Source: Tumebacillus algifaecis
GTDB taxonomy: Bacteria; Bacillota; Bacilli; Tumebacillales; Tumebacillaceae
Assembly: GCF_002243515.1 (NCBI RefSeq)
Contig: NZ_CP022657.1
Location: 2,657,001 to 2,721,000 of the forward strand
Direction of reading: 5' to 3'
Length of the DNA: 64,000 bases
Below, one piece after another: positions 6,924 to 52,591 of this stretch (its first letter is position 1; each line of letters starts with the position of its first letter). The position numbers and the translations under genes are program-made. A model generated the notes under the pieces. It was not told the origin of the DNA. It did not search any database and was given only the letters and a program-made list of their open reading frames with translations.

Positions 6924-9900
6924 CAACATGTCGGCCAAGAGATGAACGTGCGGTGGTTGTAGCAATCCATAGTGATCGGCCGGAATGTTTTGGATCTGCA
7001 AATCACCTGTGATTAGCTCCTGCCAACCGTGGGCTGCATCCCCTACTGCGTTGGAGCGGAAGAGAAGCAGGTCCCCCTGGTAGGCGACAGGTTGATAGTG
7101 AGTATAGGCATGAATATTCGCTTTGAAAACTTGCCACAGTCGGCGCAGACTCGCAAATTCGATCGCGATCGGCAACTGCTGTTGCAGGATTTCCAGCGCT
7201 TGATCTTCGCTTGTGATCGAGGTCGTCGGTACCTGCGGATCAACTCCCCCCAGCAGATCGCGGGCGAATACGGCAAGCAAGGTCAGGTCGTCCGCTTGTT
7301 CTTGGTAGGCGGGAACGGGAGCGAGCGAATCGAAGAGCGCGAGCAGTTCCACCTGCTCCCCTTGCATTTGCAATTGTTGGGCCAGTTCGTAGGCGATCGT
7401 GCCGCCGAGCGACCACGCTCCGATTCTGTACGGGCCATGTGGCTGAACGGAGCGAATCGCAGTTAGATAAGCAATTGCCAACTCTTCAATGGTCGTAAAC
7501 GGCTCCTCCCCCGCTTCTAGCCCACAAGCCTGCAAGCCATAGAACGGTTGGTCGCTGCCCAAGCTTGCTGCCAAGGCGGAGTAGCAGAAAACACTGCCCC
7601 CGACCGGATGAATGCAGAAAAAGGGTGTCTCGGTGCCGTCCGCTTGGATCGGGATCAGCGGTGACCAGCTTCTGTGGCCCGTTTGTCGCAACAGGTTGGC
7701 CAGATGCTCGACGGTACCGCCTTCAAAAAGGGCAGAAAGCGGGAGCGTTTGGGAGAAACGGGTGGTGATCTGCGCCATCAAGCGCACAGCAAGCAACGAG
7801 TGTCCGCCGAGAGTGAAGAAATTGTCTGTAACACCAATGCCGCTTATGCTGAGCAAGTTTTCCCAGATCTGCACCAGTTCGCGCTCCAAATCACTTCGCG
7901 GCGCGACGTGGTTGTGCTCCGCTTCGAGGCGGATTCCGGCAGGTGATGGCAATGCTCGGCGGTCCAGCTTGCGGTTGGCGTTGAGCGGCATGGTGTCGAG
8001 ATGCATAAACAGCGATGGAATCATGTACTCGGGCAGTTTGTCATGCAAGTAATCGCGCAGTTCCGCACTGCTTAGCGCAGGTTGCTGGCGTGCGACGAGG
8101 TAGGCGACGAGTCGTTTGTCGCCCGGGCTGAGTTCATGCGGGATGACTGCAGCTTCGAGTACATTGTGGTGCTGGCGAAGCACGCTTTCGATCTCGCCTG
8201 GTTCGATGCGGTACCCGCGGATTTTGACTTGGTGATCGAGACGGCCCAGATAGTCGATTTGACCATCGGTGCGCCAGCGGGCTCGATCGCCCGTTTTGTA
8301 GAAGCGCTCCCCTTCATGCAGGATGAAGCGCTCTGCGGTGAGCTCAGGGCGATTCAAATAGCCATTCGATAAGCACTGGCCGCCAATGCAAAGCTCACCG
8401 GGCACGCCGAGCGGGACAAATTGGTTTTGGCTATCCAAAATGCGTATCGCAGCCCCCGAGATCGGACGACCAATCGGCGGCATGGTGTCTGTTGTCTCCT
8501 CCGGCAAGCGATAGGACGTGACGACATGTGACTCGGTCGGCCCGTAATGGTTGTATAGCGTGCACCCAGGCAAACGCTGTAACAGACGTTTGATCGGGGC
8601 TGTCAGTTGCAGTTGGTCACCAGCGGTGTAGATTTCGCACAGGTGCAGACTGGTATCTCGCAGTCCCTCTGCCGCTTCGGCCAATTGCTGAAAGGCGACA
8701 TAGGGCAAGAAGAGGCGCTCCACCTGCTGTGACGATAAGTAGGGGATCAACTGCATCGGATCGCGGCGCACCTCATCGGTGAGTAGCACCAATGTCCCAC
8801 CGGAACAGAGCGTGGAGAAAATCTCTTGCACCGAGACATCGAACGTGATCGTAGCATATTGCAAGGTCCTTTGACCCGCAATAAATTTGGCGTCCTGAAG
8901 TTGCCAGTCGATCAGATTCTGCATGGCACGATGGGGCATGACGACCCCTTTGGGCTGCCCGGTGGTGCCCGATGTGTACAGGACGTACATCGTATTTTCC
9001 AGCGCGACGGTGCCTTGCTCGCGAGGTGCCTTCGCGTGATCGTGATGCTCTGTTCGGATCATCACGATGCTCGCACCGTTCTGGTTATCGATCGTGACGC
9101 TCGTCGATGCCGATGCTGAGATCGTATGCGCCGGACTGGTAAGTAGAACGGACACTTGGGCATCTTGCAGGATGTAAGTTTGACGCTCTTCCGGATGTGT
9201 AGGATCGACCGGTACGTAGCCGGCACCCGCCTTTAGAACGCCCAAAATGCTGATGATCAGTTCAGGCGAGCGCTCGAGGCGTATTCCGACCAGATCACCC
9301 GGTCCGACGCCTTGAGCTTGCAAGATGTTGGCCAAGCGGTTTGCCCGTTCGTTCAGTTCCGCATAGGTCAGGCGATCCTCACCCATGAGAACGGCCAGCG
9401 CTTGGGGCCATTTTTCCGCTTGTGCTTCAAAAAGCTGATGAACACAGCGGTGGTCCTTCCGCTCTACCAGTTGCCCCTGACCCAGCGCGATCAGTCCTTG
9501 ACGCTCGGCGGCAGGGAGCAAGTTGAGTTCGCTCACTTTTTGTTCAGGGTTTTCGGTGATGCTGACCAGCAGTTCGTGGTAATGGGTCAGCATGCGCGCC
9601 ATGGTCTCCCCATCGAAAAGGTCGGGGCTGTACTCAATCGAGCAAGTCAAACTGCCGTTGGTCTCTCCGACCGCCAGTGACAGGTCGAACATCGCCGTGT
9701 CCGTTTCTGCGATCAGCGGTGACCAAGTCAATTCAGGCAGGTGCATCTCCGTGTACAGCTCGGCGAGATGGCGGAAAAATGCTTGGAAGAGCGGCGTCTG
9801 GCTCATACTCCGTTCAACTTGCAGCTCCTCGACTAGTTTTTCAAAGGGGACGTCTTGGTTCGCAAAAGCATCGAGCGACGTTTGACGCACCTGTTGCAAC

Positions 9901-18761: not shown

Positions 18762-20204
18762 CTAGAGTGTACAAATTTTCGCTGAAGGATTCTCGATGAT
18801 CGCCTCGATCAGGCTCAGCCAGGTTTGAGCAAAATGGTGGACAGTTTCAGCGCGGTGGAGGTCGGGGCTGTATTCGAAAAAGCATTCCAGACCCCATTCG
18901 CGTTCGACGAGCCCCAATGTCAAATCATACTTGGCAGTTCCAGCATCGAGCAGGTCGTACTCGATTTCCAAACCTGGCAGTTGCAACGGTCTGTCGTCCG
19001 CCTCTACGTAGACGAACATCGCTTGAAAGACGGGGTTGCGGCTTGAATCGACTGGCAGGTGCAACGCTTCTTTCAGCAGATGAAACGGCAATTCCTGATG
19101 GGCGAATGCACCGATCGCCGCCTCACGAACTCGATGGAGCAGATCACAAAACCTCAGCTCTCCGCTTACCTCAGTTCGGATGACAGAACTGGTCAATACA
19201 TAGCCAAGCACGCGCGCCATCTCTTTGCGTCCACGATTTGCGAACGGCGTGCCGACCACGATGTCTTCTTGCCCGCAAAGACGGTGCAACAGAACTTGAT
19301 AGGCCGCCAGCAAGACCATGAAGCTGGTGGCACCTTCCTGCTGTCCCAACGCTTTCAAACGCTGAAGCCCCGCTTGGGGAAGATCAAAAAACACTCTCAC
19401 GCCTCGATGTGACTGCACAACAGGGCGCGGATAGTCGGTCGGCAGTTGTAACAAAAAGTCGCTCCCCGCCAATCGACCCTTCCAATAGGCTAACAACCTT
19501 TGCAACTCGTCACCTGTCAAATACTCTCGCTGCCACTCCGCATAGTCCGAATATTGAATCTCCGGTTCGGGCAGCGTTGCCCGCGCTCCCTGCACCAAAG
19601 CGCGATATAGCTCCGACAACTCCTCAAATACGATCGAAAAGGACACCCGATCTGTCACCAAATGATGCACCGTCAGCACCAAGCACCACTCATCCTGCGC
19701 CGCATGTACTAGCTTGACGCGCAGCATGGGTCCTTGTTCCAATTCGAAAGGTCGCTTGACCTCTTCCCCGATGACCTTTTGCATCGCCTGCTCCCGATCG
19801 ACAAGCGCCACATCTGTCAGATCAACTTCGACCCACGGCAGGAGAATTTCAGGCATCACCACCTGCATCACCTGACCGTCGATCATCCGAAACACCGTTC
19901 GCCACGCTTCATGACGCCTGATGATTTCATGGAGCGCTCGTCGCATCGCATCAACTTTGAGCAAGCCTCTGATGCGGATCGATCCGTACACATTGTACGT
20001 AGGCAACTCTGGCGCTTGCTGGTGCAACTGCCACATTCGCTCTTGATCGAACGACAGCCGACTCGGTCCCTGATGTCCGCGACGCGAAATTGATCCCTTC
20101 CCACGCTCGCCTCGTGCGGACAAGCTCTTTCGCATCACCTGTTGCTCGAACAGGGCGCGTTGTTCCGGCGATAAGGCGGCCAGACGCTCTTGCAAACGAT
20201 CCAT
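18762..20204 (-). CDS. Free-standing NRPS condensation domain
   Basis: 480 residues, about the size of one C domain plus a docking-like N-terminus (LAALSPEQRALFEQQ). The catalytic HHLVTDR motif is intact near residue 180. The later landmarks are also present: YADF/W-type QYSDYAEWQRE, the LPTDYPRP motif, VVGTPFANR and the HQELPFHLL stretch. It has no A or PCP domain. Start ATG follows GGAGGAG. It sits between the PKS gene (31-base gap) and the 47-residue ORF. Downstream modules all carry their own C domains, so this one is surplus to a linear model. It might transfer the polyketide-bound chain to a downstream carrier, make an ester or amide with a free substrate, or substitute for the broken C lobe that begins the 11080-18186 protein. 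Confidence 0.88.
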   Translation of the reverse strand: MDRLQERLAALSPEQRALFEQQVMRKSLSARGERGKGSISRRGHQGPSRLSFDQERMWQLHQQAPELPTYNVYGSIRIRGLLKVDAMRRALHEIIRRHEAWRTVFRMIDGQVMQVVMPEILLPWVEVDLTDVALVDREQAMQKVIGEEVKRPFELEQGPMLRVKLVHAAQDEWCLVLTVHHLVTDRVSFSIVFEELSELYRALVQGARATLPEPEIQYSDYAEWQREYLTGDELQRLLAYWKGRLAGSDFLLQLPTDYPRPVVQSHRGVRVFFDLPQAGLQRLKALGQQEGATSFMVLLAAYQVLLHRLCGQEDIVVGTPFANRGRKEMARVLGYVLTSSVIRTEVSGELRFCDLLHRVREAAIGAFAHQELPFHLLKEALHLPVDSSRNPVFQAMFVYVEADDRPLQLPGLEIEYDLLDAGTAKYDLTLGLVEREWGLECFFEYSPDLHRAETVHHFAQTWLSLIEAIIENPSAKICTL

Positions 20205-42646: not shown

Positions 42647-43891
42647 CTATGAAATCTCCTGTAATTTATTTTTCATACTGAGCAAAGCCAGCATCAAAAA
42701 CATCAGCGAAGCCGTAAGAAAAATAAAGTGCACCTCGATGTATTCCCCGCACACCCCACCGAGAAACAACCCGATTGGAGCGGCGATCCGCGCCAGCATC
42801 GACGTGGTGCCAGAGACGCGACCCAGCATATGATTGGGCGTCACTTCCTGACGAATCGTGTGGATATGGATGTTGGAAAACGTCGAAGCAGCGCCCAGAA
42901 TGAACAGCCCGACGGCCAAAATCAGCCAATGCGCGGATAAAAACAGCACCGACTGACCCAACGCCGCCGTCAGTATGGCGCCGATCAGCAGTTTGCCGCG
43001 CCGTCCCCATTTCAGGCTCGGCTTGGCGACAAAAGTCGAACACATGCTGCCAAGCGCCGATGCGGACAGCACCAATCCAAGTGAACTTGATGCCAAATGC
43101 AGTTTATCGAGCGCATAAAAGACGATGACCGCACCAGCGAACGAAGATACAAAGTTCACACCGAGCACGAGCAGCGTGATCGTGAACAACTCCTTGGTCA
43201 AGAGCAGTTGTTTCCAGCCTTCACGCATCTCCTCACGAATCGATGTTTTACGCCCTTCTGGCGATGGCGGCTTTTCCACTTTAGGCAATTTCATCAACGA
43301 AGTGAACATGAACAGGATCAGAAAGCCACCGATCGTGATCAACAGTCCTAGGCGATAGTTCATCACGAGGAGTAGGCTACCTGCGATCGAAGGTCCAGCC
43401 ATGGAGATCACAGTGCCCCAAAAGTTGATCGTCGCATTGGCCGACACATAGTGCTCCCGCTCCATCAACAGCGGTACAATACTGGTCGTTGAGTTTGAGA
43501 ACACATAGCCAAACGTCGTCAAACAAAATCCGAGCAGATACAAAACCCAGATCTTCGCCAATCCTGCTGTGAGCAAGCCGAACATCAACAGCAAGATGGC
43601 GATTTGCAACGCCACAGCAGCCAGCATCAGTCGCTTGCGGTCGAAGCGATCGACAATCACGCCGACCAACATGCCAAACAGCACATATGGCAACATGTTC
43701 ATGACCGCCATCGAACTCATCGCCAGCGTCGAACGAGACAGATCATAAATCATCAGCGGCAGTCCCAGCGTGTAAATGTGAAACGTCAGCCCGGAGAAGC
43801 AACTGCCAACCCACAAGTACAAAAACTGGCGATTGCGCCATAACGATTTGGGTTTCGCTACAGAGTTGACCTGAGCAAGCGGTGTGCTCAC
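42647..43891 (-). CDS. MFS transporter, probable exporter of the peptide-locus product
   Basis: About 414 residues and 12 hydrophobic segments with the MFS_3/enterobactin-exporter-like layout. The loop 2-3 motif is GMLVGVIVDRFDRKRLM, a typical MFS motif A. GTG 43891 has GGGGA nine bases upstream; GTG 43900 overlaps the upstream stop (GTGA) but its site is too close. The gene directly follows the nucleotidyltransferase and ends at a terminator, so it belongs to the same transcript as the six small peptides. It probably exports the mature product or protects the host from it. The sequence does not fix a substrate. Confidence 0.88.
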   Translation of the reverse strand: MSTPLAQVNSVAKPKSLWRNRQFLYLWVGSCFSGLTFHIYTLGLPLMIYDLSRSTLAMSSMAVMNMLPYVLFGMLVGVIVDRFDRKRLMLAAVALQIAILLLMFGLLTAGLAKIWVLYLLGFCLTTFGYVFSNSTTSIVPLLMEREHYVSANATINFWGTVISMAGPSIAGSLLLVMNYRLGLLITIGGFLILFMFTSLMKLPKVEKPPSPEGRKTSIREEMREGWKQLLLTKELFTITLLVLGVNFVSSFAGAVIVFYALDKLHLASSSLGLVLSASALGSMCSTFVAKPSLKWGRRGKLLIGAILTAALGQSVLFLSAHWLILAVGLFILGAASTFSNIHIHTIRQEVTPNHMLGRVSGTTSMLARIAAPIGLFLGGVCGEYIEVHFIFLTASLMFLMLALLSMKNKLQEIS

Positions 43892-43896
43892 AGATC

Positions 43897-45153
43897 TCAC
43901 TCCCCGCTAGAAGCCGCACAGTGCTGTGCGATCGCCGCGTCGAGTTCGAGCAATTCCTCGCGTGTTTCCAATCCAAAGCAGCTGGTCACATACCAACCGA
44001 CAGGCGAGCGGACGACCATCTTCCCTTGCAAGCGAACCCAAGCGTATTCGCCAGGTGTACCGCTCGGCACAGGGATCAAATGCGCCATCATGCGCAATTT
44101 GTAGCGTGGCAACGTAGGGAGCAATTTTTCAAAAAAGCGAACCAGCTTCAACTTCTCACGCTTGGACACCAGTTTCGTCAGCTTGTTGCGGTAGATGTTG
44201 AGCACTTCGAGCAACAGCGCGTTGAACAGACCGCCGTTGTCCACATTGTACGGAATGTAATGGTAAAGACGCTTACGCCATACGTTTTGTTTGACAAACA
44301 ATCTATTAGAGAAACCCTCGAGCATAAAATCGGGGATGTTCGCTTTCTGTCCGGAAACCTGCTCATAGTACTGCACCAACTGATAGAATTCCATATTCAA
44401 ATGATGGCCTTTTAAACGCTCGTGCAATTTTACATAATCAAGGTTGGGAGCTTCCAGTAGCAAGTATAAATCGACCGCATCGCGCAACCTAAAAATTTTG
44501 TTGCCCACCGATTCTCCGGTGAGGATCAAGATCATGTCTTCGGCAGACGGAATCGGAACTTTTACACCATTTACCAACGTTGTTCGTGCTTCGCTCCAAA
44601 AGTCACCGGACAGCCAACTGACCTCGCCCATGACAAAAGAGCCGATGCTCACTTCCAATTCGAGCATCGTGTTCTCATCGATGCGCTTATAAAAACCAGC
44701 AGCACCAACCACTTCACCGTGCAACTGACAAATCGCCGGTGCATTTTGGTAATCGAATCCAATCCCTTCGATCAAAGCGATCAATTTCCAAAAATCATCG
44801 ACCGATGGGACGACCAGGTCATAGTCGCCCATTTGACGCGGGCAACCTTCTGGGTAGAGATTTTTCATGGCGTTGCCTTTTATGTGAATATAGCGAACAC
44901 CATTTTCATTTAATACCTGCGCAACTTGGGCGAACAGTTCATCCTGAGCCGCACGGTTCCGCACCCGCTCTGTATAGTCTTCGTGCAGTCCCATCGATTG
45001 CTCCAATTGCAGGATTGGCACCATCATCTTGTTGTCATTGGCGATCTTTTTGACCTCTTCCTTTAAGCCTTCGTATTCGCGGATCAGTTCCTCGTTTTTC
45101 TTATCGGGGGTCAGAGCCAGACGATACAAAAACGGAAGTAGCTGTTGTTGCAC
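43897..45153 (-). CDS. NTP_transf_5-type nucleotidyltransferase
   Basis: 418 residues. Residues 85-120 hold the family core: HIKGNAM...YPEG..RQMGDYDLVV, with the two metal-binding aspartates of GDYD at 110 and 112. The middle has further acidic motifs and the C-terminal half is helical and basic. GTG start with AAAGGAGTG seven bases upstream. This family is uncharacterised. Members are known next to lasso-peptide genes in Bacillales, often with a kinase. Here it follows the six-peptide array after a hairpin, so peptide nucleotidylation or phosphotransfer is a reasonable inference. It could instead act on a phosphonate made by the divergent PEP mutase. Confidence 0.82.
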   Translation of the reverse strand: MQQQLLPFLYRLALTPDKKNEELIREYEGLKEEVKKIANDNKMMVPILQLEQSMGLHEDYTERVRNRAAQDELFAQVAQVLNENGVRYIHIKGNAMKNLYPEGCPRQMGDYDLVVPSVDDFWKLIALIEGIGFDYQNAPAICQLHGEVVGAAGFYKRIDENTMLELEVSIGSFVMGEVSWLSGDFWSEARTTLVNGVKVPIPSAEDMILILTGESVGNKIFRLRDAVDLYLLLEAPNLDYVKLHERLKGHHLNMEFYQLVQYYEQVSGQKANIPDFMLEGFSNRLFVKQNVWRKRLYHYIPYNVDNGGLFNALLLEVLNIYRNKLTKLVSKREKLKLVRFFEKLLPTLPRYKLRMMAHLIPVPSGTPGEYAWVRLQGKMVVRSPVGWYVTSCFGLETREELLELDAAIAQHCAASSGE

Positions 45154-45186
45154 AATGGTTCACTCCTTTAGCACTTAACATCAGGA

Positions 45187-45215
45187 GAAAGGAGAGGAAG
45201 ACTTCCTCTCCTTTC
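45187..45215 (-). other. Perfect 14-base inverted repeat between peptide array and nucleotidyltransferase
   Basis: GAAAGGAGAGGAAG (45187-45200) and its exact complement (45202-45215) flank a single base, giving an RNA stem of 12-13 bp. No T run follows on the minus strand. The likely role is to protect the 3' end of an abundant peptide mRNA or partially attenuate transcription into the enzyme genes, as happens in many peptide clusters. The stem contains GGAGAGG but no start codon follows at a useful distance. Confidence 0.6.
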
Positions 45216-45235
45216 CAATCAAATGAAACGAATCA

Positions 45236-45331
45236 CTACTTGCGGATGTTTACAAAATCAGTCTGCGGCAAAACGAAACCTTTGCGGACGTCGATAAAGT
45301 TCGGCAGTTCCATCACGATTGTGCGCTCCAT
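45236..45331 (-). CDS. Paired-DIRK peptide 6 (last in array, 31 aa)
   Basis: ATG 45329-45331 follows AAAGGAGGTGCCC, as good a ribosome site as any in the window; the stop is TAG. The product starts MERTIVMELPNFIDVRKG and ends with a second motif copy, DFVNIRK. It is the most diverged member of the group that has MELPxF in the first half. It has no signal peptide, no cysteine and no serine. Six neighbouring ORFs share this layout, which is strong evidence for coding. Its stop lies 20 bases before the inverted repeat that separates the array from the nucleotidyltransferase. Confidence 0.85.
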   Translation of the reverse strand: MERTIVMELPNFIDVRKGFVLPQTDFVNIRK

Positions 45332-45380
45332 AGTGGGCACCTCCTTTTTCTTGCAGGACGAGTCTTTTCGTCGTGCAAAA

Positions 45381-45479
45381 TTACTTCTTGCGGATGTCGA
45401 TGTACTCATGCGTGTACATAACGAGACCTTTGCGGATGTCGTTGAAGTACGGCAGTTCCATTACGAGTTTGCGCTCCAT
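45381..45479 (-). CDS. Paired-DIRK peptide 5 (32 aa)
   Basis: ATG 45477-45479 is preceded by GAAAGGAGGTGCACAAC. The first half reads MERKLVMELPYFNDIRKG and the second ends THEYIDIRKK, so each half closes with an aromatic residue, one spacer and D-I-R-K. It is nearly identical to peptides 3 and 4, from which it differs only around residues 21-24 (MYTH here). It is one of three 147-bp tandem units. No function is known to me. It lacks Cys and Ser, which argues against lanthionine, azole or sactipeptide chemistry. Confidence 0.88.
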   Translation of the reverse strand: MERKLVMELPYFNDIRKGLVMYTHEYIDIRKK

Positions 45480-45527
45480 GTTGTGCACCTCCTTTCAATT
45501 AAATCTCGGTAAATATAGGAAGAAAAA

Positions 45528-45626
45528 TTACTTCTTGCGGATGTCGATGTACTCAGGCGTGTGCAAAACGAGACCTTTGCGGATGTCGTTGAAGTACGGC
45601 AGTTCCATTACGAGTTTGCGCTCCAT
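45528..45626 (-). CDS. Paired-DIRK peptide 4 (32 aa)
   Basis: Two ATG codons stand in a row (45629 and 45626). The second keeps the same length and the same eight-base spacing to GGAGG as in the sister genes, so I take 45626. The first half is identical to peptides 3 and 5; the second half differs in LHTPEYIDIRKK (Leu and Pro in place of Met and His). The conserved parts are therefore MELPYFNDIRKG and EYIDIRKK, and the variable part is the short linker between them. Confidence 0.88.
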   Translation of the reverse strand: MERKLVMELPYFNDIRKGLVLHTPEYIDIRKK

Positions 45627-45674
45627 CATGTGCACCTCCTTTCAATTAAATCTTGGTGAATGTAAGAAGCAAAA

Positions 45675-45773
45675 TTACTTCTTGCGGATGTCAATGTACT
45701 CATGCGTGTGCATAACGAGACCTTTGCGGATGTCGTTGAAGTACGGCAGTTCCATTACGAGTTTGCGCTCCAT
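45675..45773 (-). CDS. Paired-DIRK peptide 3 (32 aa)
   Basis: ATG 45771-45773 follows AAAGGAGGTGCACAAC. It differs from peptides 4 and 5 only in the linker (MHTHEYIDIRKK). It is the most upstream of the 147-bp units. The 108 bases between it and peptide 2 contain no further member, only a remnant-like AT-poor stretch with no motif copy. Confidence 0.88.
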   Translation of the reverse strand: MERKLVMELPYFNDIRKGLVMHTHEYIDIRKK

Positions 45774-45881
45774 GTTGTGCACCTCCTTTACAACATTTTT
45801 TCCGAGATATCGAACTAGTGTGACGCACCACCAAGATCGTCTGATGTTGCTGAAACATTGCTCGACATTCCGGGATCATCA

Positions 45882-45977
45882 TTACTTGCGGATATCGATA
45901 AACAATACCGGTTCTTGCCAGTACTCTTTACGGATGTCGAAAAATTCAACAGGCTCTTGCCAACGGTTACGTTCCAT
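45882..45977 (-). CDS. Paired-DIRK peptide 2 (31 aa), openly duplicated halves
   Basis: ATG 45975-45977 follows GAGAGGAGGTGCACAAT. The two halves are near-copies of each other: RWQEPVEFFDIRK and YWQEPVLFIDIRK. This shows that the family arose by internal duplication of a 13-15 residue unit, W-x-E-P-V-x-F-x-D-I-R-K. The unit resembles the start of the PQQ precursor PqqA (W-x-K-P-x-F-x-D-L-R). It has no Cys, Ser or Thr. Confidence 0.88.
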   Translation of the reverse strand: MERNRWQEPVEFFDIRKEYWQEPVLFIDIRK

Positions 45978-46020
45978 ATTGTGCACCTCCTCTCCCAGCT
46001 AAGGCGTGTCCGATCCAATG

Positions 46021-46113
46021 TTACTTACGGATTTCGATGAACTCCGGCATCGTGATTGCGATACTGCGGATGTCAACAAATTCTACCGGTTGTGCTACGC
46101 GGTTACGGAACAT
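46021..46113 (-). CDS. Paired-DIRK peptide 1 (first in array, 30 aa)
   Basis: ATG 46111-46113 follows GGGAGGTGTCC. The first half is MFRNRVAQPVEFVDIRS and the second closes with MPEFIEIRK, so the motif is kept with I-E-I-R-K and D-I-R-S variants. It carries one Ser and no Cys. It is the promoter-proximal gene, about 75 bases after the predicted transcription start. Codon use and ribosome site match the other five. Confidence 0.85.
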   Translation of the reverse strand: MFRNRVAQPVEFVDIRSIAITMPEFIEIRK

Positions 46114-46170
46114 GGTGGACACCTCCCTTAACACTTAATTAGGGACGGAAAATTTAGCAAGTTTAGTGCC

Positions 46171-46199
46171 TTGAAAAAACTTTCCGTTTACTCTATTAT
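46171..46199 (+). promoter_or_regulatory. Sigma-A promoter for the PEP mutase arm
   Basis: TTGAAA (46171-46176), a 17-base spacer and TATTAT (46194-46199): each box is 5 of 6 to consensus with ideal spacing. Transcription should start near 46206, leaving a leader of about 110 bases. The -10 overlaps that of the opposite promoter. Confidence 0.75.
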
Positions 46200-46222
46200 A
46201 TAAATAATCAGAAAATAATCAA
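46195..46222 (-). promoter_or_regulatory. Sigma-A promoter for the peptide array
   Basis: On the minus strand TTGATT (46217-46222), a 16-base spacer and a perfect TATAAT (46195-46200). Transcription should start near 46188, about 75 bases before peptide 1. Its -10 shares six bases with the plus-strand -10. Confidence 0.75.
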
Positions 46223-46316: not shown

Positions 46317-47198
46317 ATGAACCCGAGAAAACGATTGCGCAGTCTGATGCAGGAGCCGGATCGCATCATCCAAACGGTAGGGGCGCACAACGCGTTGGGA
46401 GCAAAGTTGGTGGAGCAGCACGGATTTGATGCGGTATGGGCGAGCGGATTTGAGATCTCCACAGCCCATGCCAAACCGGATGCAAACATCTTGACCATGG
46501 TCGAATTTCTTGAAGCTGCACGTCAGATGACCGATGCCACCCACTTACCGATCATCGCAGACTGTGACACCGGATTTGGCAATGTGAACAACGTGATCCG
46601 CATGGTGCGCGATTATGAGAAAGCGGGCATTGCAGCCGTCTGTATTGAAGATAAAGTCTTTCCAAAGATGAATTCCTTCATCCCAGGCTTCCAAACGCTC
46701 GCTCCCAAAGATGAATTTTCAGCCAAGATTCGCGCAGCAAAAGACACACAGCGCGACCCTGATTTTGTGGTGATCGCCCGCGTCGAGTCGTTGATCGCAG
46801 GACATGGGATGGAAGAGTCACTCGAACGTGCGGCCGCTTATGAGGAAGCGGGCGCCGATCTCATTTTGATCCATTCCAAACAAAAAGATCCCGGAGAGAT
46901 CTTCGAATTCAGCCGCCGCTGGAACTCCGACACACCGCTGGTTATCGTGCCAACCACTTACCCGAGCATCACGCTGACCGAAATGATCGAACATAACGTC
47001 AAAATGGTCATCTATGCCAACCAAGCGTTGCGGGCGGCGGTCAAGGCCATGAATCAAGTCCTTGCCCAGCTCAAAGAGTCTGGGTCGTTGCTTGCGATTC
47101 AAGATCAATTAAGCCCGATGGATCAACTTTTTGAACTACAAGGGTTGAAAGACATGATCAAACAAGAAGAACAGTACCGCAGACAAGAGGTCAGATAA
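46317..47198 (+). CDS. pepM: Phosphoenolpyruvate mutase
   Basis: 293 residues from ATG 46317, with AAGGGTGGGA upstream; upstream in-frame codons lack a site and run into the promoter. The active-site order matches known PEP mutases: WASGFEIS near 41, ADCDTGFGN at 81-89 and EDKVFPKMNS at 111-120. The EDKxxPKxNS gating-loop motif separates PEP mutases from isocitrate/methylisocitrate lyases and oxaloacetate hydrolases. The enzyme converts PEP to phosphonopyruvate, the entry to nearly all natural phosphonates. Equilibrium favours PEP, so a follow-up step is needed, yet no phosphonopyruvate decarboxylase, transaminase or reductase is encoded here. The thymidylate-kinase-like gene follows on the same strand, and the nucleotidyltransferase, peptides and exporter diverge. 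Confidence 0.93.
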   Translation: MNPRKRLRSLMQEPDRIIQTVGAHNALGAKLVEQHGFDAVWASGFEISTAHAKPDANILTMVEFLEAARQMTDATHLPIIADCDTGFGNVNNVIRMVRDYEKAGIAAVCIEDKVFPKMNSFIPGFQTLAPKDEFSAKIRAAKDTQRDPDFVVIARVESLIAGHGMEESLERAAAYEEAGADLILIHSKQKDPGEIFEFSRRWNSDTPLVIVPTTYPSITLTEMIEHNVKMVIYANQALRAAVKAMNQVLAQLKESGSLLAIQDQLSPMDQLFELQGLKDMIKQEEQYRRQEVR

Positions 47199-47265: not shown

Positions 47266-47889
47266 TTGAAACCGTTTTTGGTTATTGAAGGTGTAGATGG
47301 CACCGGAAAAAGCACCGTCTGTGCAGCTTTGGAGCAGGAACAAGGGGCTGCATTTTATAAAGGGATGTCACCAGAGTGGCGCGATTTCCGCGATTTTGTC
47401 GATGAAGATGCGGATGACGATTCGCGCCTGCTATACTATTTTGCTTCGTGTATGTACACGTCGGGCAAAGTAAAAAAATCTGGTGAAAAAGTGCCGGTGA
47501 TCTGTCACCGCTATTTTGCAACCTATATGGCGATCTATTCTCTGAACACCGGAACGCCGCTGGAGAAAGTGCTCGAGGCGTTTGCACCGATCCGCGAGCG
47601 CATGGTCACGCCGCACCTGTCGATTTTATTGACGGCAGACCACGAAGAATTGAAACGCCGCCTGCTCGCCCGTGTCGATGAACTAAAAGCGACCGATATG
47701 CGGGTCGTCAACTCGCACGAATATACCTTAAACTTCGAAGCGGCTCTGCGAGCAGTGATGAGTTGGGACGGGCCCTACATCGTTTTGGACACGACCGGCA
47801 AAACACCGGAACAAGTCGTGTCCGAGGTTCGTCAGCTCTGTGTCCAGCACATTCCCGGCTGGCCAACGGTCATCGAATCGTCCAACTAA
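47266..47889 (+). CDS. Thymidylate-kinase-like P-loop kinase
   Basis: 207 residues from TTG 47266 (AAGGAG nine bases upstream). An in-frame TTG at 47215 also has a GAGGAG site and would add 17 residues that the family lacks, so the later start is preferred. The Walker A motif is EGVDGTGKST, and the fold follows thymidylate kinases (about 205-215 aa). The DRY motif that follows strand 3 is HRY here (VICHRYFATYMA), and the LID region is short (RLLARVDELKATD). That loss of the Asp argues against a housekeeping dTMP kinase. Because it shares a transcript with PEP mutase, phosphorylation of a phosphonate or nucleotide intermediate is possible, but this is inference. Confidence 0.8.
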   Translation: MKPFLVIEGVDGTGKSTVCAALEQEQGAAFYKGMSPEWRDFRDFVDEDADDDSRLLYYFASCMYTSGKVKKSGEKVPVICHRYFATYMAIYSLNTGTPLEKVLEAFAPIRERMVTPHLSILLTADHEELKRRLLARVDELKATDMRVVNSHEYTLNFEAALRAVMSWDGPYIVLDTTGKTPEQVVSEVRQLCVQHIPGWPTVIESSN

Positions 47890-47946: not shown

Positions 47947-49221
47947 TTACAACGCGATGCCGCGCTTTTGCAGATCTCCCATCAAATAATCGTGGAGTTG
48001 CTCCCAGCGGCGTGCAGACTCTTCGTATTTCCCTTGACGGTTGAGGAGACGGCAGAGTTTGCGGGTACCTTCCTCCAATTCGGAGGTCATGCCATACTGT
48101 TCGAACAATGCGAGCGCACGGTCGAGATGGGCCTGACCTTTTTGATCATCTTCTCGCTCAAAGAAGATCAGTGCTAGCAACTGATGGACTCGGCCCATGC
48201 ACGGATGAAGTTCCGGCAAGCTCATTCGTGCCTTTTCCGCGTACTCACACGCTTCATCGATCGCCTCGTTCGTCAGCAAAATGGTGGCGATATCCGCATA
48301 CAGCTCTCCGACCTTCGCACCTTCACAATGGTTGGTCATGGCGAGTAGCTCCTGTACGGAAGCTCTCCAGTCGATTCGATCGCGCTTGAGCAACACCGCT
48401 CTGCGCTTCCAGTCCTGATTGTGCCGAGTGTTTTCTTCCTCTTCCAGCAAGATCGTAGCCTTGGTCGCATATTCATCCGCCTTGAGGTAGTTCTTTTGAC
48501 GGTAGTAGGCGTCTGCAAGCTTCAGCATCATCTTGCCTCGATCCTCCGCTTCTACCACCTGCAACGCCGCATTCCAACATTCTGCTGCTTTGTTTACCTG
48601 GCCGGTCTTCTCATGAACGTTCGCCAATTGTACCAACACTTTTGCCTGAAGCGCCGGGTCAGGCAGCTCAATCTTTTTCAATTCCTCAAGCGCACGCTCG
48701 GTGTGATATAAAGAGATTGAATATTCGCTCTTTTTTAGTGCATCCAGCCCCATATGGAGATACACTTTGGACAGCAGCTCTCCATCCTGCCGCAGAATCG
48801 CCAAGCCCTGCACCTCGTTCAAGAATGACATCGCCTCCGCGGCCCGTCCAACTTGGAGCAAGGAGAAGGCCAATTCCACCTGCACGTCCATCTTCGGAAT
48901 CTGCTGGTCGGTGCTGTCGAGCAATTCCTGCAACTGCGTGATCGCCAACCCGTACTCCTTGGCTCGCACCAGCCCTTTCGCCATCTTATATTTGGTGATG
49001 TCTGCCAGATCGAGTTCAACATCTTTCAGCAAAAAGTCGAGTGGCACGCCCAATTTCTCTGCAATCCCAAACAATATTTTATACGAAGGAGTGGTTCTGT
49101 CCGACTCGATTTGCGAAATCATACTCGGCGTACAAATTCCATCTGCCAGCCCAATCTGGGTCATCCCCTTCTTCACTCTCAACTCACGAATTCTTTGTCC
49201 CAACGATGTCATCATTTTCAT
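47947..49221 (-). CDS. XRE-family HTH regulator with TPR repeats
   Basis: 424 residues (or 422 from the ATG at 49215, which is better spaced from GAGGAGG). Residues 8-62 form an XRE HTH (RIRELRVKKGMTQIGLADGICTPSMISQIESDR). The rest is helical with repeated TPR-like pairs through to the C-terminus. This is the RRNPP-like architecture (PlcR, NprR, PrgX) in which the TPR part binds a short peptide or protein. It converges on the PEP mutase arm and is therefore not in that transcript. It may control it, but no pheromone-type ORF with a signal peptide is adjacent. Confidence 0.88.
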   Translation of the reverse strand: MKMMTSLGQRIRELRVKKGMTQIGLADGICTPSMISQIESDRTTPSYKILFGIAEKLGVPLDFLLKDVELDLADITKYKMAKGLVRAKEYGLAITQLQELLDSTDQQIPKMDVQVELAFSLLQVGRAAEAMSFLNEVQGLAILRQDGELLSKVYLHMGLDALKKSEYSISLYHTERALEELKKIELPDPALQAKVLVQLANVHEKTGQVNKAAECWNAALQVVEAEDRGKMMLKLADAYYRQKNYLKADEYATKATILLEEEENTRHNQDWKRRAVLLKRDRIDWRASVQELLAMTNHCEGAKVGELYADIATILLTNEAIDEACEYAEKARMSLPELHPCMGRVHQLLALIFFEREDDQKGQAHLDRALALFEQYGMTSELEEGTRKLCRLLNRQGKYEESARRWEQLHDYLMGDLQKRGIAL

Positions 49222-49253
49222 CGTACCTCCTCAGCGGTGAATGTCTTGAACAC

Positions 49254-49262
49254 ATTGTAACA
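49254..49262 (-). promoter_or_regulatory. Extended -10 promoter of the XRE-TPR gene
   Basis: Minus strand TGTTACAAT: a TG-n motif and TACAAT (5 of 6), about 33 bases before the start codon. A TTGACC lies ten bases upstream, too close to be its -35. Confidence 0.4.
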
Positions 49263-49352
49263 AGAAACGGGTCAACTTTGATATATTTACAGACCATGTT
49301 ATTGCAGGAAAAAAAAACGACAGAAGTTGTCTGACAATTCGCCTCCTTCAAC

Positions 49353-49376
49353 AAAAAAAGCCCCTAAAAAGGGGCT
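49353..49376 (-). terminator. Terminator of the three-gene XRE paralogue operon
   Basis: Minus strand AGCCCC-TTTTTA-GGGGCT followed by TTTTTT. It lies about 120 bases after the stop of the short HTH gene. Confidence 0.88.
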
Positions 49377-49493
49377 CGTATTCGCACTTATCGTTTAAAA
49401 GTGTCTGTAAGGTATCTGAGCCTAGCCTATGTATCGTCTTGTATCATCAAAAAATGGAACCTGTAACTTCTCATCTAACGAATCAAAAAACGG

Positions 49494-49769
49494 CTAGATC
49501 TTCTCTTTTGGATCCTGCTCCCACGATTCTGCCTGCAAGATTCGTGCAACAGGCACATTTAGGTCCTGTGCGATTTTCTCCAACATAACGAGATAGATCG
49601 CCCGATCCCCGGTTAACATCAGCCGTAATGTTTCCCTGCTAATACTCAGGCGTTTTGCCATTGCGGAAAGACTGAAGGAGCTTTCCTTCTCCTTCATGAT
49701 CTCCCGGATTCGTCTCAACCGTGGAATCTGATCTGCATTTGTATGTGTCGGTGCCATAAGTTGGCTCAT
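49494..49769 (-). CDS. HTH-only XRE paralogue (91 aa)
   Basis: The 91 residues match the N-terminal domain of the two genes upstream almost position for position (MSQLMAPTHT, IPRLRRIREIMKEKESS, then an HTH with SMAKRLSISRETLRLML). It stops just where the TPR part of the paralogues begins. GGTGAGGG precedes the ATG. It lies 25 bases after its long sister gene. It could be a truncated duplicate that still binds the same operator and competes with the full-length forms, or a decaying copy; the intact frame favours function. Confidence 0.8.
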   Translation of the reverse strand: MSQLMAPTHTNADQIPRLRRIREIMKEKESSFSLSAMAKRLSISRETLRLMLTGDRAIYLVMLEKIAQDLNVPVARILQAESWEQDPKEKI

Positions 49770-49794
49770 CTACGGTTCCCTCACCTTCCATCTA

Positions 49795-50973
49795 CTAAAA
49801 ATTCTTGTCGAGCGGGAAACGTTTTTTCGTCAATCTCCCCTTCGATTTTCGGGTCAACACATGCCACTGCTGCAAAAACTCTTTTTGCTTAAAGGCAATC
49901 GTCAGATAGCGATACGCAAGGTACCTGCTCTTTTTCGGGTAGCTCAGATTCCGCGCCACGCCATCCGCATACCGGGTGTCTTGAGTGGCCCGGGACAGTA
50001 AGATTAGCATTCTTGCTTTTAAATCCAAGTTTTGATCAATAGGTTCCGATTGTAACGTTTTGCGAATTATTGACTCGGCTGCCTGAAATTCATGTAGTTT
50101 GATATACACTTTCGCCAATGCCTTAAACCCGCTCAGACGTACAATTTCATTTTCCCAATATTCGATCGAACCCGCGATTAGATCTCTTGCTTTCCTGTAG
50201 TTGAGATCAGCATATTCAGCCCAGGCGACATTGAGATAGGCCCGACCAATCCGATCACGATTCGTAGTTGTCAAATATAGTTCCAAACATTTATAGAGAT
50301 ACATTTTGGCTTCTTTATGTTCAAACGATGAGTACTTCATTTTGGCAAGTGCAACATACAAAACACCATGATTAAGCGGATCATTCTGCAAATAGGGCTC
50401 CACTTGCTCTTTGATCTCAAGTACTTTATCAAACTCATCAGTATGTGCATAAACATTCAAAAACAGGACCAAGCATCTGGAATATAATGCCTCATCTTGA
50501 TAGTCCTGTTTGATTTTTTCTGCAATCACGTACAATTCTTGTAGATATTGCTTCGCTTTATCGAAATCCTGTTTCCAGAAACAGATGTATGCAATTGCAG
50601 AGAGGCTGAATGCTCTTTCCGACATACCGATCGATACAACGTGTCGAGCTTCGACTAGTTCCATGGCCTTCCCTAACTGGTTCTGTGTAATAAGTTGACG
50701 ACGAAGGTCATTATTATTTTGTGCATGCAAATCTTCTTGCAACAATCGAGGCAGCTGCACTTTCAAATCTTGGGCAATCTTCTCTAATTCAAAGTTGTAG
50801 ATCTCGCGTTCACCATTCAACATCAGCCGCAATGTCTCCCTGCTCATCCCAAGCCGTGCTGACATCGCTGTAATGCTGTAGGAACTGCCTTTTTCCTTCA
50901 TAATCTCGCGAATTCGCCGCCAGAGCGGAATCTTATCTTCATACGTATGTGTAGGTGCTGTAAGTTGGCTCAT
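49795..50973 (-). CDS. XRE-HTH/TPR regulator, paralogue B
   Basis: 392 residues. The start has AGGAG seven bases upstream. The N-terminal HTH (RIREIMKEKGSSYSITAMSARLGMSRETLRLMLNGER, near 15-55) is followed by a linker and about ten helices with TPR-like spacing, ending in a basic tail (KGRLTKKRFPLDKNF). It is closely related to the gene at 50990-52159 and lies 16 bases downstream of it. This architecture suits a ligand-responsive repressor or activator. Its targets and ligand are unknown. Confidence 0.85.
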   Translation of the reverse strand: MSQLTAPTHTYEDKIPLWRRIREIMKEKGSSYSITAMSARLGMSRETLRLMLNGEREIYNFELEKIAQDLKVQLPRLLQEDLHAQNNNDLRRQLITQNQLGKAMELVEARHVVSIGMSERAFSLSAIAYICFWKQDFDKAKQYLQELYVIAEKIKQDYQDEALYSRCLVLFLNVYAHTDEFDKVLEIKEQVEPYLQNDPLNHGVLYVALAKMKYSSFEHKEAKMYLYKCLELYLTTTNRDRIGRAYLNVAWAEYADLNYRKARDLIAGSIEYWENEIVRLSGFKALAKVYIKLHEFQAAESIIRKTLQSEPIDQNLDLKARMLILLSRATQDTRYADGVARNLSYPKKSRYLAYRYLTIAFKQKEFLQQWHVLTRKSKGRLTKKRFPLDKNF

Positions 50974-50989
50974 TCATTTTCTCCTGCCA

Positions 50990-52159
50990 TTACATATTGT
51001 TATCCAGCGAAAAAAGACGTTTCGAGTTACTCCGTTGCACCCTTGCTGACCGTGACCGACCCAGCCTTAGTATTCCTTTGTAATATCGATTGAGATAGCG
51101 CGATGCGATAAACCGTTCCTTCTTGTTGTATTGCATACCGGAGACGACTGCTTCCGCATAGCCAGGATTCCCTGTAGCTCGAAACAATAAGATAAGAAGC
51201 AAAGCTTTCACGTCCAGATGTTCAACAATCCGATCCGATTGTAAAGCTGACCGAATTACTTCCTCCGCTGCACGATTTTCTTTGAGTTTGATTAGCGTTT
51301 TTGCCAAACCTTTCTTCGCCAGAAACCAAATTTGGACAGACGGATCCGTTCTAAATACAGCTTCAAAAAGTTCTTTTGCTTTCTCATACTCGCGTGTGAC
51401 ATATTCAATGTACGCAATATTCATGTATCCTCGTCCGATCCTATCCGTAACCTTTGACAGCAAAAATTGTTCATGACTTTTGTAGAAATACATTTTCGCA
51501 TCGGCCAGTTCATACCTCGATAATTCCATTCTAGCAAGCGTATAATACACCAATCCCATTAGAGGCGTATCGCGAAAAATTGGTTCGACCAATTCTATGA
51601 GTTCGAGCGCTTTGTCAAATTGCCCCATATTTGCATAGCAGTTCAAGAGATTATTCAGCGCTTTCTCAAGTATTTTGCTATCTTGATACTTCTTGTTAAT
51701 TTCTTCTGCCATTGCATAAAATTCCAAACAATGTCGAGTTGCTTCTTCTAATTCGCCCTTCCAGAAGTGTACAAGTTGTAACCTGTTGGTCGCCTCTGCG
51801 CGCTCTGAGAGACCAATTGCAACATCGTTATGCTCCCTAGCGGCGCGCATCGACTCCTCCCACTGGCCATTAGATATATACTTCGAAAACTGTTTATCAC
51901 TATGATAGTGCATCAAATCCGCTTGCGTTAGACGTGTCAACGGCACTTTCAAATCTTGTGCGATCTGCTCCAACTCGAATGTGTAAAGCCCGCGTTCGCC
52001 ACTCAGCATCACTCGCAGTGTCTCACGGCTCATACCAAGACGACTTGCCATGGCTGACATGCTGTAGGAACTTCCTTTTTCTTTCATGATCTCTCGAATC
52101 CGCCGTCCCAGCGGAATTTGATCTACATAGGTATGCGTTGGCGCATCTAATTGGCTCAT
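50990..52159 (-). CDS. XRE-HTH/TPR regulator, paralogue A
   Basis: About 389 residues from ATG 52159, chosen because the paralogues all begin MSQL.APTHT and GGGGA then has a seven-base spacing; an ATG two codons earlier is too close to that site. The HTH is SAMASRLGMSRETLRVMLSGER. TPR-like helices and a basic C-terminus (SNSKRLFSLDNNM) follow. It is the first gene of a three-gene paralogue operon that ends at the 49353-49376 terminator. The shared C-terminal F[PS]LD.N. motif in A and B suggests a functional tail. Confidence 0.85.
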   Translation of the reverse strand: MSQLDAPTHTYVDQIPLGRRIREIMKEKGSSYSMSAMASRLGMSRETLRVMLSGERGLYTFELEQIAQDLKVPLTRLTQADLMHYHSDKQFSKYISNGQWEESMRAAREHNDVAIGLSERAEATNRLQLVHFWKGELEEATRHCLEFYAMAEEINKKYQDSKILEKALNNLLNCYANMGQFDKALELIELVEPIFRDTPLMGLVYYTLARMELSRYELADAKMYFYKSHEQFLLSKVTDRIGRGYMNIAYIEYVTREYEKAKELFEAVFRTDPSVQIWFLAKKGLAKTLIKLKENRAAEEVIRSALQSDRIVEHLDVKALLLILLFRATGNPGYAEAVVSGMQYNKKERFIASRYLNRYYKGILRLGRSRSARVQRSNSKRLFSLDNNM

Positions 52160-52591
52160 GTTCATTCCCCTGTCATCGCTCGTTTAAAGTTGACTGTCGA
52201 ACAGATATCGTTTTTGGTCTGACTTCATGAACGATTCGCATACGGTTGTCGTCCTCTTTGAAGGTGTCACGTGCAAAGAGGAATGAGGAGCGACTCTTTC
52301 ACCACAGCAGAAGCCGCTTGAAACTGGGTTGAGCGGGTGCCGCCTAATGGCGCCTCTTGATCCACTGCCATTTCTTGAACGACGATTCCAATATAGAAAA
52401 GTATACGAATCTCATTAATATTAGCATAGCTTATTTTGCAGAATAATTCCTCATACCTAACCGGAAAATTCTGTACTATATCGAATAAATAACAAATGTA
52501 TAACTACGATTCAAGGCGTTTTATATCGAAAATATTTGTGATATGATAAGGTAGTAATTTCCCACCCTCATTCTGAGAGGAGATGCTGCTA
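52160..52591. promoter_or_regulatory. Divergent intergenic region between XRE operon and orphan 189-aa gene
   Basis: These 432 bases hold no firm gene. The right half is AT-rich and includes a weak plus-strand promoter (TTTATA at 52520-52525, 16-base spacer, TATGAT at 52542-52547). The left half is GC-richer and has a 34-codon minus-strand ORF (52267-52371, starting MAVDQEAPLGG) without a ribosome site, which I do not call as a gene. Confidence 0.4.

Follow-up and report, generated by a model that had tools for sequence, protein, structure and literature searches.

The array and its neighbours

The window, by which we mean the whole 64,000-nt stretch of DNA analysed here, comes from Tumebacillus algifaecis (GCF_002243515.1, NZ_CP022657.1). 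On its minus strand, from 46113 to 45236, six small ORFs lie in series, encoding near-duplicate peptides of 30-32 amino acids, and they lead, as the original prediction held, into a nucleotidyltransferase (NTase) and an exporter; the NTase belongs to family PF14907 and the exporter is an MFS protein. The features of the locus are as follows.

47266..47889, plus strand: thymidylate-kinase-like P-loop protein after the PEP mutase, an uncertain member of the locus
46317..47198, plus strand: PEP mutase, divergent from the array (TIGR02320 above cut-off; EDKVFPKMNS)
46195..46222, minus strand: putative sigma-A type promoter, TTGATT-N16-TATAAT, unchanged across the three genomes that carry arrays
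46202..46221, minus strand: operator-like direct repeat TGATTATTT-TC-TGATTATTT with an 11-nt step, between -35 and -10
46145..46187, minus strand: predicted leader-RNA hairpin with 11-bp arms ACGGAAAGTTT / AAATTTTCCGT plus an inner stem, also present in the congeners
46021..46113, minus strand: peptide 1, 30 aa, MFRNRVAQPVEFVDIRSIAITMPEFIEIRK
45882..45977, minus strand: peptide 2, 31 aa, MERNRWQEPVEFFDIRKEYWQEPVLFIDIRK
45675..45773, minus strand: peptide 3, 32 aa, MERKLVMELPYFNDIRKGLVMHTHEYIDIRKK
45528..45626, minus strand: peptide 4, 32 aa, MERKLVMELPYFNDIRKGLVLHTPEYIDIRKK
45381..45479, minus strand: peptide 5, 32 aa, MERKLVMELPYFNDIRKGLVMYTHEYIDIRKK
45236..45331, minus strand: peptide 6, 31 aa, MERTIVMELPNFIDVRKGFVLPQTDFVNIRK
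45186..45216, minus strand: predicted strong RNA hairpin GAAAGGAGAGGAA-GUC-UUCCUCUCCUUUC, between the last peptide and the enzyme gene, conserved in the congeners
43897..45153, minus strand: NTP_transf_5 (PF14907) nucleotidyltransferase, 418 aa, pol-beta NTase fold
42647..43900, minus strand: MFS exporter, 417 aa, its start overlapping the stop of the enzyme gene by 4 bp

Each of the six ORFs has the ribosome-binding site of its own that had been claimed for it: a strong Shine-Dalgarno sequence (AGGAGGTG in five, GGGAGGTG in peptide 1), the GGAGGTG-type site lying about 7 nt ahead of an ATG start in every case. The two copies of [FY]-x-[DNE]-[IV]-R ascribed to each peptide are likewise present (12 of 12), and K closes all but one of them, the exception reading R-S (11 of 12 with K); the spacing between the copies, put at about 15 residues, measures 13-14 residues. 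The six peptides together hold no Cys and a single Ser, as stated, so that their exclusion as lanthipeptide and sactipeptide precursors follows from the absent Cys and that as azole precursors from the lack of the usual Cys and Ser; Thr occurs in several of them. The peptides are Pro-rich, their net charge lies between just -1 and +2, and their C-termini read R-K, R-K-K or R-G-L; a predicted peptide structure came out mostly disordered (pLDDT 73, pTM 0.15). By inspection, an N-terminal signal-like hydrophobic stretch is present in none of the 19 peptides of the three array-bearing genomes. Further, no ORF in 399 kb of control DNA showed the two-motif C-terminal pattern, which argues that the paired-motif array did not arise by chance.

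Judged by score and signature, the divergent gene at 46317..47198 encodes a genuine PEP mutase: it scores 324 bits against TIGR02320 (cut-off 319.55), its closest solved structures are PEP mutases, and EDKVFPKMNS, an instance of the EDKxxxxxNS signature, occurs in the PEP mutases of all three genomes. Near 153.4 kb, the chromosome has another copy, of 55% identity, as part of an unrelated operon (L048). Elsewhere in the window, very large ORFs of up to 2390 aa occupy 327-33120 (minus strand), and the ORF at 18762-20204 (minus strand) has a condensation domain; this suggests an NRPS cluster, which a MoxR/DUF58/VWA and ABC operon separates from the array.

Conservation within the genus

The original prediction looked to relatives for homologous arrays with the same neighbours and unbroken frames, and such arrays exist in two congeneric species, one (G001) with seven peptides and the other, Tumebacillus avium (G002; NZ_CP021434.1), with six, all with reading frames intact. 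The three genomes share the gene order thymidylate-kinase-like gene, PEP mutase gene, divergent array, NTP_transf_5 gene and MFS gene, and the neighbour proteins of the congeners are 75-88% identical to those of the window. Across the 37 modules in the 19 peptides, F/Y, I/V and R are kept in all 37 and the motif Asp in 35; K follows the motif R in 27 of 37 and is hence dispensable. One peptide of G001 carries a single module, and we therefore regard the module as the unit.

A comparison of synonymous and non-synonymous change, also put forward at the outset, gave pS 0.215, pN 0.087 and dN/dS 0.36 for the peptides of one congener against those of the other, and in the other two frames of the array pS was not above pN. 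Purifying selection acts at the peptide level, and the array encodes short ribosomal precursors of the kind expected of ribosomally synthesized, modified peptides (RiPPs). The dS of the array equals that of the NTase gene (0.25), and the array therefore diverged together with its neighbours.

Among 14 genomes of the order, a peptide profile matched meaningfully only in the window's genome and the two congeners, and in about 790 further genomes (398 of Bacilli and 398 of Bacillota) meaningful E-values were again confined to the three congeners; three weak matches of 16-20 residues near E 0.008 outside the genus were taken as chance. When 84,980 genomes were scanned with the NTase (one per species, the window's own genome possibly left out), T. 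avium alone was found. The NTase had no match in plasmids, the peptide none in phages, and the paired-motif DNA pattern none in viral contigs. Because all cases lie within one genus, the co-occurrence of array and neighbours counts as a single evolutionary event. The peptides look like a new, genus-specific family. The claim that no such family had been described stands for the peptides, which current Pfam and NCBIfam models do not match and of which no description was found in the papers searched, but not for the enzyme, whose family recurrently accompanies lasso-type precursors.

Predicted expression signals

The promoter and the direct repeat do not differ between the three genomes, each of which has them once, at the array only. 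The promoter call rests on this conservation, since a scan for promoter-like sites found 3 against 2.1 expected, which is not significant by itself. With one conserved promoter upstream and no terminator-like site inside the peptide array, it is plausible that the six peptides are made from one mRNA. The candidate leader hairpin has z-scores of -2.7, -2.6 and -1.6, and the 13-bp hairpin ahead of the enzyme gene has z-scores of -4.0 and -3.2; no canonical terminator tail was detected at the latter, which is likely a partial terminator or an element of mRNA processing or stability. A search of Rfam found no known RNA. The operator, both hairpins and the PEP mutase neighbour are absent from the original prediction.

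C-ending codons make up 86% of those in the array; the NTase and MFS genes have 47-52% (Fisher p = 5e-7), and one congener shows the trend as well. CGY encodes every Arg in the array as against 71-78% in those two genes. On general knowledge of codon bias, we read this usage as a pattern of high expression.

The nucleotidyltransferase and the possible product

The window's NTase is a member of PF14907, scoring 68.5 bits (cut-off 31.2) and retaining the catalytic residues, with K92-G93, R106, D110, D112 and D228 invariant in 17 relatives. Residues 1-280 are modelled well and the C-terminal 135 residues poorly; in the well-modelled part the enzyme has a fold like that of active NMP transferases, among them ANT(2'')-Ia and MenT: the closest solved fold is MenT1 (Z 15.4, 3.0 Å over 185 residues, 14% identity), and ANT(2'')-Ia (Z 12.1, 3.5 Å over 165) and LnuA (Z 9.9, 3.5 Å over 148) also match. 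The enzyme, with its active-site residues intact, is encoded alongside the peptides and may modify them.

Most other PF14907 genes examined in Bacilli stand in lasso-type clusters, with precursors of 33-51 aa and with asparagine-synthetase-like, PqqD-like, transglutaminase-like, HPr-kinase-like and ABC genes as neighbours, which were named by reading translations rather than by profiles. One lasso-type locus (L082, 2805-3511) has three near-identical tandem precursor genes upstream of its PF14907 NTase. The window's enzyme shares only about 15-20% identity with the lasso-associated members, so its type of substrate may differ. In a sister genus (G003), the locus L046, 1622-12636, combines a PF14907 NTase with HPr-kinase-like, PqqD/TenA-like, M3-type peptidase, aminotransferase-HD and MFS genes and is possibly another undescribed peptide-type cluster. 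In G003, an NTase of 24% identity shares its contig with an MFS gene; the locus was considered as a sister cluster and rejected, since no such peptides were seen among its small ORFs.

Among known systems, the paeninodin and pseudomycoidin (PsmK/PsmN) lasso clusters resemble the array operon in that short precursors lie by a nucleotidyltransferase-like gene and an exporter, and PsmN, annotated as a nucleotidyltransferase, is needed for the hexose on the phosphorylated peptide of pseudomycoidin, sugar or nucleotide transfer being unsettled (PMC9266682). PF14907, too, is often paired with lasso-type gene sets in Bacilli. In contrast to lasso clusters, the array has no HPr-like kinase and an MFS protein in place of the ABC exporter, and its precursors are six tandem genes of unrelated sequence that lack a C-terminal Ser; nor was an asparagine-synthetase-like lasso cyclase or a leader peptidase or RRE protein found among the flanking proteins of the window or the congeners, which sets the array apart from the lasso class. 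The microcin C operon (mccA-mccB-mccC) likewise joins a very short precursor, a nucleotide-transferring enzyme and an MFS-type exporter. However, MccB is a ThiF/E1-like enzyme that acts on a C-terminal Asn, whereas the array's enzyme is of pol-beta type and its peptides have 30-32 aa with two internal motifs. The repeated F/Y-x-D pattern recalls the aromatic-x-D/N of three-residue cyclophane (triceptide) precursors, but no radical SAM maturase family matched among the 20 larger neighbours scanned, mostly from 33-64 kb. This kind of system (short precursor, NTP_transf_5 enzyme, exporter) has known cousins; the peptides themselves look new.

The reading that we prefer, and to which we give about an even chance, is a RiPP-like operon in which a bulk precursor is tagged with a nucleotidyl or sugar-phosphate group and exported. 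One regulated promoter would yield an mRNA with the six precursor genes, then the modifying enzyme, then the exporter, and the precursors would be made in large excess, as the strong Shine-Dalgarno sites, the high-expression codons and the hairpin ahead of the enzyme gene suggest. The pol-beta-type NTase would recognise the repeated [FY]-x-D-[IV]-R-(K) module and place a nucleotidyl or sugar-phosphate group on it, most likely on the conserved Asp or the basic end; cleavage by host proteases at K/R may then leave two core units per peptide, and the MFS protein would export the product, probably an antagonistic or signalling peptide. The analysis shows the gene order, the conservation, the selection on the peptides, the intact active-site residues of the NTase and the conserved promoter and hairpins; from there we infer co-transcription, modification, processing, export and biological role.

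Several observations lead us to favour the RiPP-like reading. First, arrays of six, seven and six peptides with the NTase and MFS genes downstream occur in three congeneric genomes, under purifying selection and with F/Y, I/V and R kept in 37 of 37 motifs. Second, the codon bias, the conserved promoter with its unique operator and the pre-enzyme hairpin all fit it. Third, the enzyme has its catalytic K, G, R and Asp invariant and a fold like that of NMP transferases, its family adjoins lasso-type gene sets at most other loci in Bacilli, and PsmN offers a precedent (PMC9266682). The same reading is weakened because the peptides have no recognisable separate leader and almost no Ser, which is the modified residue in the lasso relatives, because neither a protease nor a further tailoring enzyme accompanies the array, because the NTase is so distant from the lasso-associated members, and because the co-occurrence is confined to one genus.

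It is unlikely, though worth weighing, that the peptides are instead unmodified pheromones, exported and sensed by neighbouring HTH-TPR (RRNPP-like) regulators, the NTase having a separate role. Tandem regulators of this type, forming a locus-specific subfamily, lie at 47947-52165 (minus strand) together with truncated copies (e.g. 49494-49769), and the congeners have two to four full copies in the same place. The regulators near the array in all three genomes share 38-59% identity with the window's protein at 49795-50973, regulators located elsewhere 36% at most; decayed fragments accompany those near the array, from which two divergent genes part them. One regulator gives a weak AimR match, and the unique operator within the array promoter would suit a regulated pheromone. 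Yet HTH-TPR proteins abound, with 6-17 matches in each genome, those without arrays included, the peptides show no visible Sec signal and are unlike SHP-type propeptides (compare PMC10075063), the high-expression codons fit a bulk product better, and a fixed double motif in each peptide is unlike known pheromones.

We hold it rather improbable that the array is a multi-peptide leaderless bacteriocin, with peptides active unmodified, export by the MFS protein and the NTase a bystander or immunity gene. Multi-precursor leaderless bacteriocins do share with the array several small tandem peptides without a visible leader and an exporter in one operon, but they are typically cationic and amphipathic, whereas these peptides are near-neutral (-1 to +2), Pro-rich, mostly unstructured in prediction and paired-motif, and they have a nucleotidyltransferase partner that retains its catalytic residues.

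We see little chance that phosphonopyruvate from the PEP mutase becomes a phosphonate that is nucleotidyl-activated and joined to the peptide in a Trojan-horse-like conjugate. The gene that diverges from the array does encode a true PEP mutase, judged by its score against the model and its signature, and within the order close orthologues of it (83-87% identity) are confined to the three genomes that have the array, as is a split TPP-dependent phosphonopyruvate/sulfopyruvate-decarboxylase-like pair (L099, about 8000-9066; L100, about 8100-9154; L101, 7757-8825); a 45%-identical PEP mutase in G011 has a true phosphonopyruvate decarboxylase as its neighbour. Phosphonate pathways commonly include nucleotidyl activation (PMC6697681). 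Against this, the three genomes form one clade, so that shared ancestry alone explains the co-occurrence, which cannot show a functional link; the decarboxylase-like pair lies far from the array and scores below the family cut-off; and no phosphonate transferase or ligase was recognised in the cluster. To our knowledge, PF14907 is not the known family of phosphonate cytidylyltransferases. Overall, an association of the PEP mutase with the array is possible. It is similarly improbable that the array represents a new class of ribosomal conjugates, defined by a lone pol-beta NTase that attaches a PEP-mutase-derived phosphonate (or the nucleotide of that phosphonate) to each module.

A toxin-antitoxin-like pair, in which a MenT/AbiEii-type NTase toxin is restrained by the peptides, is very improbable: MenT toxins are the closest solved folds, but that match is at superfamily level and shared with ANT and LnuA enzymes, six repeated-motif peptides, an exporter and a single-locus, genus-specific spread do not fit, and PF14907 genes of Bacilli are mostly in RiPP-type clusters.

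Enzymes of the NTP_transf_5 family are found repeatedly in peptide clusters of Bacillota, and the chemistry of PsmN, the nucleotidyltransferase-like enzyme studied best in such clusters, is unsettled between glycosylation and nucleotidylation (PMC9266682). The array operon, which combines an NTP_transf_5 enzyme with its putative precursors and an exporter and has no other obvious peptide-modifying enzyme, offers a clean two-component test of the enzyme's action on a peptide. If the NTase modifies the repeated motif, the peptides would define a new family of precursors, one transcript holding up to 12 modules in the window's genome.
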